NCBI RefSeq assembly: GCF_018860505.1 | Contig: NZ_JAHKPU010000018.1 | Location: 62,001-126,000, forward strand | Source: Pacificibacter marinus | GTDB taxonomy: Bacteria > Pseudomonadota > Alphaproteobacteria > Rhodobacterales > Rhodobacteraceae | Direction of reading: 5' to 3' | DNA: 64,000 bases | Shown here: in pieces, positions 9,411 through 56,628 of the stretch | How positions within the stretch are numbered: position 1 is the stretch's first letter | How the letters are laid out: every line of letters begins with the position of its first letter | The notes under the pieces: model-generated | What the model was told of the DNA's origin: nothing | The model's input: only the letters and a program-made list of their open reading frames with translations | The model's database searches: none | Made by a program: the position numbers and the translations under genes

Positions 9411-9860
9411 TTAGTCTTTCAACATCTCCGCAATGCGCGCAGCCTCTTCTTGTGACAGCTCATCGATGACTGTTTCCGCTTGGCGGCGGCGCACAAAAGC
9501 AAAGCCGATACCAAGTGCTAGAAACAACATGACAGGCCCCGCGACCCACAGTAGTTTGTTGGCCCCTGACAAAGTGGGGTTGAGCAAAACATATTCGCCG
9601 TAACGTTCAACAATGTAGTTGATCACTTGGACATTACTGTCACCTTCGACCAATCGCTCACGCACCAAAAGCCGTAAATCCTTTGCCAGATCCGCATGGG
9701 ATTCATCGATATTTTCATTACGGCACACCAAACAGCGCAGCTCTTTGGAAATCTCGCGTGCGCGGCTTTCCATCACGGGATCGTCCAAAACTTCGCTGGG
9801 TTCTACCGCGTAAAGCGGCAACGCAAATAGCAGGCTCAGGATCAGAAAAAACGATCTCAT
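9411..9860 (-). CDS. ccmH: Cytochrome c maturation protein CcmH
   Basis: CcmH handles the thiols of apocytochrome c CXXCH motifs before haem attachment in the periplasm. The 149-residue product has an N-terminal signal or anchor, the redox motif LRCLVC with Cys43 and Cys46, a three-helix domain, and a C-terminal membrane helix followed by a charged tail. The start overlaps the ccmF stop by four bases, indicating coupling. Its clients here would include the Sox cytochromes and the cytochrome at 49.2 kb. Confidence 0.95.
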   Translation of the reverse strand: MRSFFLILSLLFALPLYAVEPSEVLDDPVMESRAREISKELRCLVCRNENIDESHADLAKDLRLLVRERLVEGDSNVQVINYIVERYGEYVLLNPTLSGANKLLWVAGPVMLFLALGIGFAFVRRRQAETVIDELSQEEAARIAEMLKD

Positions 9861-12016: not shown

Positions 12017-12439
12017 TCAAATCACCCATAAGACCCCCAGAGACAAAAGCAACGCGCCAATAACGGGCACCAAAAAACTAAAACCATGGTAACCAAATGA
12101 CCCTTGAATGACCGCAAAATGCAGCACGGCGCCCGCCATCAGCAAAGACAAAAAGGCGAACAGAACCGCAGCTTCCACGCCCCAGACAGAGCTTAAGCGT
12201 ACTTGTGAGGCCCACCACCAGCCCAAGGTTAAACCAAGTCCCGCCCAACTGAACGACATGCCCAAGGCCAGTGGTGTAGCACGCACCTGCCAAAGCCAAA
12301 AGAACGTGCCTGAAATAACCAGCGCCATCACGCAGATCGCGCCATACCCGATCAGCACCATATGCGTGGTGCCGATCAAGGACATGCCCATGAGCGCTAG
12401 CCCCAAAATCACGCCGTATAATGCGAGTGCTTGTTTCAT
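12017..12439 (-). CDS. Conserved-looking membrane protein of unknown function
   Basis: The 140-residue product is almost entirely hydrophobic with four or five predicted membrane helices and no motif I recognise; Trp residues are frequent (FFWLWQV, GWWWAS). Its ATG overlaps the stop of the upstream 45-residue gene as ATGA, and it is the last gene of the run that begins with the GTA-type endolysin. A role in lysis, or alternatively in cytochrome c maturation because ccmF follows after 189 bases, can only be guessed from position. It has no visible signal peptidase site or metal-binding cluster. Confidence 0.75.
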   Translation of the reverse strand: MKQALALYGVILGLALMGMSLIGTTHMVLIGYGAICVMALVISGTFFWLWQVRATPLALGMSFSWAGLGLTLGWWWASQVRLSSVWGVEAAVLFAFLSLLMAGAVLHFAVIQGSFGYHGFSFLVPVIGALLLSLGVLWVI

Positions 12440-12573
12440 AGTTTCAACATCTCCTTCACTGCCGCATCCAAAGCGTTTGCAGCGTCGTGATTACGTTTGA
12501 CGGCCTTTGCGAGAGGCGTGCCTGCAACCAAGTCCAAGAGCCAGATCGAGATTTCTTTTAGGTGTGGCCTCAT
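12436..12573 (-). CDS. 45-residue small protein, coupled between two membrane protein genes
   Basis: An ATG at 12573 opens a 45-codon frame encoding MRPHLKEISIWLLDLVAG onward and ending EMLKL. The start overlaps the stop of the 62-residue gene (TGATG) and the stop overlaps the start of the 140-residue gene (ATGA), so both ends fit a coupled operon exactly. This packing is the main evidence that it is real, together with its filling the only gap in the run. The first 18 residues form a short amphipathic or weakly hydrophobic helix and the rest is a charged helix. No family recognised. Confidence 0.65.
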   Translation of the reverse strand: MRPHLKEISIWLLDLVAGTPLAKAVKRNHDAANALDAAVKEMLKL

Positions 12574-12761
12574 CACTGCGCCCCCCCTCTTGGCAGGCGC
12601 TCTCGAATCATCGTCGTCGTCTCAATCAAGATTTGCGAGTTTTTATCGAGCACAGCGCGGGTGGCTTGGTCTTTTTGTAAGTCCCTGTATAAGAGGAAAA
12701 AAACCATAATCGCCCAAGGCCCGTGATCGGACAGAGCATTGATCAGCGCATCACTCATCAT
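12573..12761 (-). CDS. 62-residue single-span membrane protein, holin-like position
   Basis: The product has one membrane segment (about residues 14-26, GPWAIMVFFLLY) followed by a charged helix with RDLQKDQ and a C-terminal TTTMIRERL. One span plus a charged cytoplasmic tail is the general plan of small phage holin or holin-accessory proteins, but I cannot assign a family. The start overlaps the stop of the GTA-type holin by four bases and its stop overlaps the next small gene. An additional ATG one codon in is equally possible as the start. Confidence 0.75.
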   Translation of the reverse strand: MMSDALINALSDHGPWAIMVFFLLYRDLQKDQATRAVLDKNSQILIETTTMIRERLPRGGAQ

Positions 12762-13369
12762 TGCTCACCTCTCCAAGCTGCAAGCGCTGGATTTTCAGCC
12801 TCAAATCCTAGAACTTCCGGCAGGTTTTGCTCAGGTAAGGGGCCAGCCGCATAGGCGGTTTGCACCAATGGAACGGTGTCGCCTTTCGCCCCAGCTTCCA
12901 GCGCTCTGAGCGCCTCTAGCGAGCGAATGTTAGCCGTTACAATCGGAGCTTGCGCCACAGTTGCGGCAATGGAGCGTTGAAAATTTTGCCCCGTCGCTTG
13001 ATACCGCGCGCCAAAATAAAAGCTGACAATCGCCCCCATGAGCCACCACAACGGCTCAGGGATCAGCGCCACCCCCTGCATCCGCTCGGCGAACCAAATC
13101 GGATTGACCATTGCCGCCACGCATAACCCGATAGAACCAAAGGCCATCAAGGGACGCGGCACGCGATTGAGCCCATCCATGAACCGATCAAACCGCCCAG
13201 TGCGCGCCACGGCAAATTCTTTGGCAAATTGATCCATGGCGGCAGCGCGCAAGGCTGCATCACGGACCGATCCGTTTTCGGTGTTTTCCATGAACACCTC
13301 AGCCGTCTCTTTGATCACATTCTGCCCATTACCGAACAGCAATTGACCTAAAATCTGCACTATTCCCAT
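12758..13369 (-). CDS. Gene transfer agent-type holin (GTA_holin_3TM family)
   Basis: This 203-residue protein resembles the holin family that releases gene transfer agent particles from Rhodobacter capsulatus. Two clear hydrophobic segments (about 80-98 and 105-125) follow a charged N-terminal region containing FDRFMDGLNRVPRP; the C-terminal third is soluble. The family's role is to permeabilise the inner membrane so that the endolysin reaches the wall. It overlaps the upstream endolysin gene by ten bases. GTA head and tail genes are not in this window, as is usual for the lysis genes, which lie outside the structural cluster in R. capsulatus. Confidence 0.8.
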   Translation of the reverse strand: MGIVQILGQLLFGNGQNVIKETAEVFMENTENGSVRDAALRAAAMDQFAKEFAVARTGRFDRFMDGLNRVPRPLMAFGSIGLCVAAMVNPIWFAERMQGVALIPEPLWWLMGAIVSFYFGARYQATGQNFQRSIAATVAQAPIVTANIRSLEALRALEAGAKGDTVPLVQTAYAAGPLPEQNLPEVLGFEAENPALAAWRGEQ

Positions 13370-13971
13370 GACGCCACCCGTGCGGCATGTTCCGCCTCAG
13401 TCAGATGATACCTCGGAGAAATGAACTCTTCTGCCCGTGTGATCCAACCGCCCTTGCCGCCATCTTGGCGCTTGGCGTATTTGCGGCTCTTAGGACGTCT
13501 GTCGGCCAAAGCATAATAATAGTTGCGCCGCGCAATCCCAAAGGCATCCGCCAGATGATGCGGGGCCAAGCTCTGCGCGATCAGGCACGCTTCGATCGTT
13601 TGCGGGCCGATTTGACCATCAACGACAATACTTTGCCCCATATCGACCAAAAGCCGCTGCAAAATGCGCACCGCGTTCGTGCCGGCGTTGACATACATGT
13701 CAAACACAGTGGCATGCAGCACCGGCGGCAATTCGTCGATACGTGGCCCGCTAAAGTAGTGTTCAACGAAAATGTCGCGGGCCTGTGCGCGGGTTAACAT
13801 GCGCACATCTGACGATGTCACTCGCCCGTCACCGTCATTATCGATCCCAAGTCGGCGCAGCGTGCCGATGGTGACGCCAAAGTTGGTCGCGCCCCCCAAA
13901 TCATCAGGATCATCCACATAACCGCCCTCACGAGCGATAATGTCATTTGCTATTTGCTGTACTGTTTTCAT
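13360..13971 (-). CDS. Gene transfer agent-type endolysin, glycosyl hydrolase family 108
   Basis: The 203-residue product has the family 108 muramidase signature REGGYVDDPDDLGGATNFG at about residues 14-32, where the Glu is the catalytic acid, followed by a peptidoglycan-binding-like C-terminal half containing the VDGQIGPQT segment. A perfect EF-hand-type loop, DNDGDGRVTSSD, interrupts the fold at about residues 44-55. No secretion signal is present, so export needs the holin encoded next. It is the first gene of a five-gene overlapping run, starting 74 bases after the ccmE stop. Homologues lyse producer cells to release GTA particles. Confidence 0.88.
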   Translation of the reverse strand: MKTVQQIANDIIAREGGYVDDPDDLGGATNFGVTIGTLRRLGIDNDGDGRVTSSDVRMLTRAQARDIFVEHYFSGPRIDELPPVLHATVFDMYVNAGTNAVRILQRLLVDMGQSIVVDGQIGPQTIEACLIAQSLAPHHLADAFGIARRNYYYALADRRPKSRKYAKRQDGGKGGWITRAEEFISPRYHLTEAEHAARVASWE

Positions 13972-14045
13972 ATGCCAAAACCCACCAATTTGATGGGTTA
14001 AGGCTGCCGCATAAAAGTTAACGCAGGCGGACTAGAGCGTGCGCG

Positions 14046-56606: not shown

Positions 56607-56628
56607 TTAACAATTAACGGGCCATTAA
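56607..56628 (+). promoter_or_regulatory. CtrA-type box upstream of the MshEN glycosyltransferase
   Basis: TTAA at 56614-56617 and 56625-56628 are seven bases apart (CGGGCCA), the second followed by CC; a further TTAA lies at 56607-56610. The layout (extra TTAA half-site, then TTAACG-N5-TTAACC) closely resembles the one upstream of lexA. It ends 63 bases before the gene start. Confidence 0.6.

Follow-up and report, generated by a model that had tools for sequence, protein, structure and literature searches.

Organization of the gene block

In the window analyzed here, a stretch of 64,000 nucleotides of the Pacificibacter marinus genome, five open reading frames follow one another on the minus strand between positions 12017 and 13971. 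The first (13360-13971) encodes an endolysin of 203 amino acids, a GH108-type N-acetylmuramidase, and the second (12758-13369) a holin, also of 203 amino acids, the two genes overlapping by 10 bases. The holin gene overlaps by 4 bases with the frame for P3 (12573-12761; 62 amino acids), a putative small holin-like protein of the BhlA type. Next come P4 (12436-12573; 45 amino acids), a helix-like protein with the conserved pattern RN..AA..LD.A.KE, and P5 (12017-12439; 140 amino acids), a predicted membrane protein with the motif TPLALGM..SWAG; neither matches a known family. P3 and P4 overlap by 1 base when P4 is read from its ATG, and a GTG codon 3 bases upstream would give a product of 46 amino acids and a 4-base overlap. 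The P4 and P5 frames overlap by 4 bases. All five frames and the overlaps of 10, 4, 1 and 4 bases are present as originally predicted. The block is flanked on the same strand by ccmE (14489-14046) on one side and by ccmF (frame ending at 9857) on the other. Between ccmE and the endolysin gene lies an intervening region (13972-14045, minus strand) with a conserved GTTAAC at 14017-14022.

Conservation of the block was followed in a set of 20 genomes of the genus (G000-G019). Homologues of P3 and P5 were found in 19 of them (the exception being G005), with a P4 homologue between the two at all 19 loci. The dN/dS ratios (NG86, 11 pairs) were 0.02-0.08 for the endolysin, 0.06-0.14 for the holin, 0-0.08 for P3, 0.05-0.17 for P5 and 0.08-0.70 for P4, the last being a noisy estimate for a short gene. 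In each of the five genes synonymous change outweighs non-synonymous change, P4 being the least strictly constrained. The claim that they form one conserved block was borne out.

A scan of 84,980 genomes across species revealed P3 relatives at 122 places, the best 80 of which are referred to below as the named loci; the closest P3 among these records, 97% identical, comes from Pacificibacter. The holin and P3 frames overlap in 77 of 78 named loci, and the P3 and P4 frames in at least 43 of 80, mostly with small gaps otherwise. At the 70 loci with P5 the last four bases of P4 are ATGA (64) or TTGA (6), and in 70/70 a start codon overlaps the P4 stop by four bases (at the six TTGA loci the start rule had picked an earlier codon). 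The five overlapping genes are thus real and conserved. Since P3-P5 overlap the holin gene, the simplest reading would place them on one transcript with the lysis pair.

The lysis pair and the gene transfer agent of the host

The assignment of the endolysin and holin to the families of gene transfer agent (GTA) release, proposed from the sequence before any database search, was confirmed. The endolysin scored 352.7 bits against NF040573 ('holin-associated N-acetylmuramidase', cut-off 240) and matched PF05838 and PF09374, and the holin scored 89.9 bits against PF11351 (GTA_holin_3TM, 'Holin of 3TMs, for gene-transfer release', cut-off 24.8). The genes are adjacent and both lysis profiles lie above their curated cut-offs, a combination expected of GTA lysis genes. 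The endolysin has no visible signal peptide. The hydropathy plot of the holin displays two clear segments (75-91 and 99-115), although PF11351 is named after a three-span holin.

A head-tail cluster of the RcGTA type, with a match to GTA_TIM, lies on a different contig of the 3.65-Mb host genome. Eight of ten frames tested in this cluster exceeded curated NCBIfam cut-offs (capsid, prohead protease, connector, tail proteins and the RcGTA tape measure, NF058675); the remaining two were a portal fragment just below the cut-off and one unmatched frame. In a survey of 149 genomes, one per genus, the holin was present in 118 of 129 GTA-positive genera versus 9 of 20 GTA-negative ones, as judged by GTA_TIM (Fisher p 4e-6, a statistic that ignores relatedness). 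Single-sequence tblastn gave no match of the window holin in phage records; an alignment-based search recovered 69 viral contigs with a GTA-type endolysin-holin pair. A second such pair was observed elsewhere in G005 (L195, 2706-3925), with no ccm neighbours in that stretch.

A putative CtrA-type half-site upstream of the endolysin gene

The sequence TTAAC occupies the same place before the endolysin gene in 18 of the 19 genus loci, mostly inside a longer conserved block. Unique upstream stretches were compiled for wider comparison: 123 from the genus survey, 75 from the 80 named loci and 47 from the 69 viral contigs. TTAAC lies within the 100 bases ahead of the endolysin gene in 89/123 of the first set (shuffle mean 8.1, maximum 19) and in 67/75 of the second (shuffle mean 8.1, maximum 14), the usual distance to the start codon being 43-60 bases. 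It was present in 1/47 viral cassettes (shuffle mean 1.7). Passages of Fogg 2019 (PMC6363796) describe TTAAC-N6-GTAAC as a CtrA site in the gafA promoter, binding of GafA to the RcGTA lysis promoter and the requirement of CtrA for endolysin expression, and in a 2022 paper (PMC9638019) the rcc00555/6 promoter is reported to contain putative CtrA half-sites. A putative CtrA-type half-site is accordingly marked ahead of the endolysin gene. It is frequent at loci with P3 behind the holin gene (10/12), at those with an XhlA relative (10/12) and at others (69/99) alike, and because of this it marks the chromosomal cassette and not P3. Searching the GTA head-tail cluster with the endolysin promoter block gave no strong match (best 12.0, versus at least 25.9 for the training sites). 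A weak match to the block, scoring 15.4, occurs at position 56621 of the window on the plus strand.

P3 resembles the BhlA family of phage small holins

P3 has a single hydrophobic stretch, short, weak and N-terminal (17-residue maximum 1.15), and 24 homologues keep G14-P15-W16, L23-L24, R26-D27, R35, N41, E47 and R55. Against PF10960 (BhlA) it scored 15.0 bits, below the gathering cut-off of 22.6. Matches to this family at E values up to 1 were obtained for 18 of the 24 homologues (best E 4.8e-4), and a further three P3 homologues scored 13.5-14.5 bits. PHROG matches of the P3 members were all weak and pointed to bacteriocin production/immunity (10/24) or holin (5/24).

Profile-profile comparison with 35 aligned BhlA proteins from phages (Paenibacillus-type) and viral contigs, some of them near-identical, gave Prob 93.7, E 1.8e-7 and a score of 38.6 over 57 columns, and a smaller profile of five BhlA sequences gave Prob 77 across 28 columns. 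The 12 P3 rows from outside the genus scored 36.6 by themselves. All controls fell below this whole-length similarity: the reversed profile (17.4), the best of 100 block shuffles (20.4), XhlA (10.3-10.4; ten of the twelve XhlA proteins, L163 and L175 left out) and the N-terminal-TM family that fills the same slot in viral cassettes (13.3). Like BhlA, which is known from SPbeta (bhlA) and from phages of Paenibacillus, Brevibacillus and Geobacillus, P3 combines a short N-terminal span, the pattern G-[PI]-[FW]...LL and a charged helix-like stretch, and both proteins adjoin lysis genes. Unlike BhlA, P3 is found behind a GTA holin and a muramidase, and its linker is shorter when the two are aligned. 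A remote relationship of P3 to the BhlA phage small holins is therefore probable, although P3 does not belong to the family by the Pfam cut-off.

XhlA (PF10779) was considered as another identity for P3 and ruled out: the score was as low as given above, and the XhlA span is C-terminal whereas the hydrophobic stretch of P3 is N-terminal. For the spanin-like or export role once considered for the small proteins no support was seen; inspection of the P3 sequence by eye showed neither a Cys nor a lipobox. No BhlA match at E 1e-3 was present in 289 alphaproteobacterial genomes, no gene was annotated as BhlA in the phi3T stretch, and phage or viral relatives were found neither for P3 nor for P5. 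No PDB chain matched the P3 or P5 profile better than E 1.6.

P4 and P5

The hydropathy maximum of P4 is 1.29. Among 24 homologues A31 and D36 are kept, N28, A32 and L35 nearly so, and comparison with Pfam gave 12 families, each matching only one of the 24 members. P5, for which four to five membrane segments had been predicted, does show four strong hydrophobic stretches and, by eye, a fifth candidate at residues 56-77. Its residues kept in 24 homologues include P56-L57, G60-M61, W65 and G67, and neither Pfam nor PHROG matched the 24 members consistently. Full P5 was found only in G000 among the 289 genomes from across the class, together with two partial matches (E 0.004 and 0.007). Weak tblastn matches of P5 occur in many loci; the profile search returned one such weak match, at L163 (E 0.03), where it overlaps the frame of ccmF.

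The small genes keep company with the lysis pair

In the 149-genus survey profile matches were obtained for the holin in 127 genomes, for P3 in 14 and for P5 in 10, and all 10 P5 genomes carry P3. P3 stands directly behind the holin gene in 12 of the 14 P3 genera. In one of the other two, G062, the locus begins at a contig end. In the other, G091, the whole genome lacks an endolysin or holin match, and the open frames of P3-P4-P5 lie between ccmE and ccmF (L094, 3527-4484); tblastn detected no credible remnant of the lysis genes in this gap, and the genome retains GTA_TIM matches. The converse case is G005 (L194), in which the endolysin and holin are kept and P3-P5 are absent. At two loci, L197 (G019) and L263, the holin gene has an in-frame stop near the conserved second span and P3-P5 are open; in G019 a GTA_TIM match is missing as well. 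Across genera the presence of P3 is not correlated with that of the holin (12/14 P3 genera versus 115/135 others, p 1), and the evidence for linkage is therefore positional.

At the best 80 of the 122 P3 loci P4 was found 80 times, the holin 78 times, the endolysin 77 times and P5 70 times, the loci without holin or endolysin being cut by contig ends. The profile check thus upheld the expectation that the small genes stay with the GTA endolysin and holin. The ccmF frame starts more than 400 bases beyond the cassette at 16 of the 80 loci and was not found at 3 more, each with at least 3.4 kb available. Enoyl-CoA hydratase is the next recognised gene behind P3 in L097 and behind P3-P5 in L098. 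Because ccmF is so often displaced or not found, P3-P5 are predicted to belong to the lysis operon rather than to the cytochrome genes, as originally proposed, with G091 as the contrary genome. Small genes beside ccmF without the lysis pair, the arrangement named beforehand as pointing to cytochrome maturation, thus occur in one of the 14 P3 genera and not as a rule.

The slot behind the holin gene

The gene behind the holin was classified in 126 of the 127 holin genomes and in G091 and G062, which have P3 and no holin frame (128 in all). An XhlA relative lies right behind the holin gene in 12 of the 126 holin genera; three of these relatives were tested and two were above the Pfam cut-off, the third just below. 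Eleven of the 12 XhlA genes have a start codon that precedes the end of the holin gene by 4, 8 or 11 bases; in L057 the start codon follows that end by 25 bases. No genome has both P3 and XhlA. We infer that the two are alternatives for the second component, which this slot encodes. Neither is found behind the holin in 102 of the 128 genera (2 of these cut short), for which reason the endolysin-holin pair can presumably work alone. Three other membrane-type frames occur at this slot. One frame of 55 amino acids, in L145 (G155), has two hydrophobic stretches and extends across the holin stop; it is possibly a further kind of third gene.

On a quick tree of the endolysin and holin (124 rows, 53 of 121 inner branches weak), P3 requires 8 changes and XhlA 6, versus shuffled means of 11.7 and 11.6. 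Within one 13-row clade the two are interleaved, a pattern that with many weak branches fits gains, losses and exchange alike.

All 69 viral contigs (L366-L434, IMG/VR), which are of alphaproteobacterial type, carry the same endolysin and holin families as the block described here; the differences lie in the rarity of TTAAC and in the next gene. This encodes an N-terminal-TM protein of about 115 amino acids in 46 contigs, a protein of about 95 amino acids with a signal-like start in 12, both in 2 and neither in 13; P3, P4, P5, XhlA and BhlA had no match on these contigs. The longer of the two proteins looks DUF2730-like.

Proposed mechanism and alternatives

We favour, with moderate confidence, the view that the block is a GTA release operon in an extended five-gene form, with the holin and a BhlA-type second component. 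CtrA, together with GafA, would switch on the late GTA genes and the muramidase would build up in the cytoplasm. The holin and the single-span P3 would then act together as a two-part holin that opens the inner membrane, a mode of action also proposed for XhlA and XhlB of PBSX, and the muramidase would escape and lyse the cell. P4 is probably a helix of the cytoplasm and P5 a predicted polytopic membrane protein. The two, presumably made in coupled amounts, occurred in the genus survey only together with P3, and their most likely role would be to set the timing of membrane opening. Control of lysis evolved by the host may fit them slightly better than a lytic tool, since P4-P5 are conserved together with P3, share a four-base overlap and yielded no viral relatives. 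Points against a two-part holin are the sub-threshold BhlA match, the lack of BhlA matches at E 1e-3 in the 289 alphaproteobacterial genomes, the weak P3 span, G005, G091, the 102 of 128 genera without P3 or XhlA, and the SPbeta result cited below (PMC5589764).

It is possible, though unlikely, that P3-P5 form an antiholin or immunity unit, which would hold back the GTA holin in cells that make no particles, or postpone lysis until the particles mature; any of the three could be the antiholin. The overlap of the P3 and holin genes would suit such a unit, as would the names of BhlA relatives in PHROGs and phage records, some of which read 'involved in bacteriocin production or immunity'. P3-P5 stay open at the three loci where the holin is missing or interrupted by a stop (L094 of G091, L197 of G019 and L263), which is easier to explain if P3-P5 are harmless on their own. 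On the other hand, phage BhlA proteins adjoin amidases and are often annotated as holins, and XhlA, the alternative in the same slot, is needed for endolysin-dependent vesicle release by PBSX, according to passages of PMC5589764.

About as doubtful, and if anything slightly more so, is the reading in which P3 alone is a lysis gene and P4 and P5 are hitch-hikers with some other membrane function. It draws on the absence of P5 from 10 of the 80 named loci and of both P4 and P5 from G101, and on the missing sequence link of P4 and P5 to lysis families. It is opposed by the constant company of P3 in P5 genomes of the genus survey, by the confinement of full P5 to G000 among the class-wide genomes, by the intact cassette where ccmF has moved away, and by G026, in which P4 lies behind P5 and still within the cassette. 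A role of P3-P5 in cytochrome c maturation, for which their place ahead of ccmF and the G091 locus could be cited, is very improbable and largely contradicted by the 135 of 149 genera without a P3 match, by the persistence of P3-P5 with the lysis pair where ccmF is displaced or not found, and by the enoyl-CoA hydratase neighbours.

Relation to known lysis systems

The release operon preferred here shares with rcc00555/rcc00556 of RcGTA (Rhodobacter capsulatus) the endolysin and holin families, the location away from the head-tail cluster and the half-site before the endolysin gene. In the parts of the published description available, RcGTA has two lysis genes, whereas here three more overlap downstream. 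PBSX of Bacillus subtilis (xhlA-xhlB-xlyA) likewise combines an endolysin, a holin and a small membrane partner, and it is XhlA relatives that fill the slot in 12 genera; P3 differs from XhlA (profile score about 10). The PBSX endolysin and main holin belong to families other than those found here, and PBSX is not known to have a P4 or P5. Passages of PMC5589764 state that vesicle production needs xhlA, xhlB and xlyA, matching an earlier report on lysis, and that induction of blyA-bhlAB (blyA-bhlA-bhlB) of SPbeta gave no vesicles. Caulobacter uses an unrelated lysis system, LypABC, according to a passage of PMC13236601.

No third gene of a GTA lysis operon and none of P3-P5 was described in the titles, abstract openings and passages of the open-access literature searched, a set outside which the primary release papers (Hynes 2012, Westbye 2013) lie. 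As far as these searches go, the holin-endolysin cassette for GTA release is known, and the extended form with P4 and P5 appears new.

Lysis to release GTAs comes at a high cost and is undertaken by a subpopulation of cells. Three further conserved genes in a GTA lysis block, two of them without a known family, are direct targets for deletion. The slot occupied by BhlA-type or XhlA-type proteins suggests that some GTA holins may be two-part devices like those of Bacillus prophages. We tentatively propose that in some marine Rhodobacterales GTAs the holin has two parts, the second of which was exchanged between the unrelated BhlA and XhlA types, and that one lineage may have added the coupled P4-P5 genes, which would time or gate lysis.
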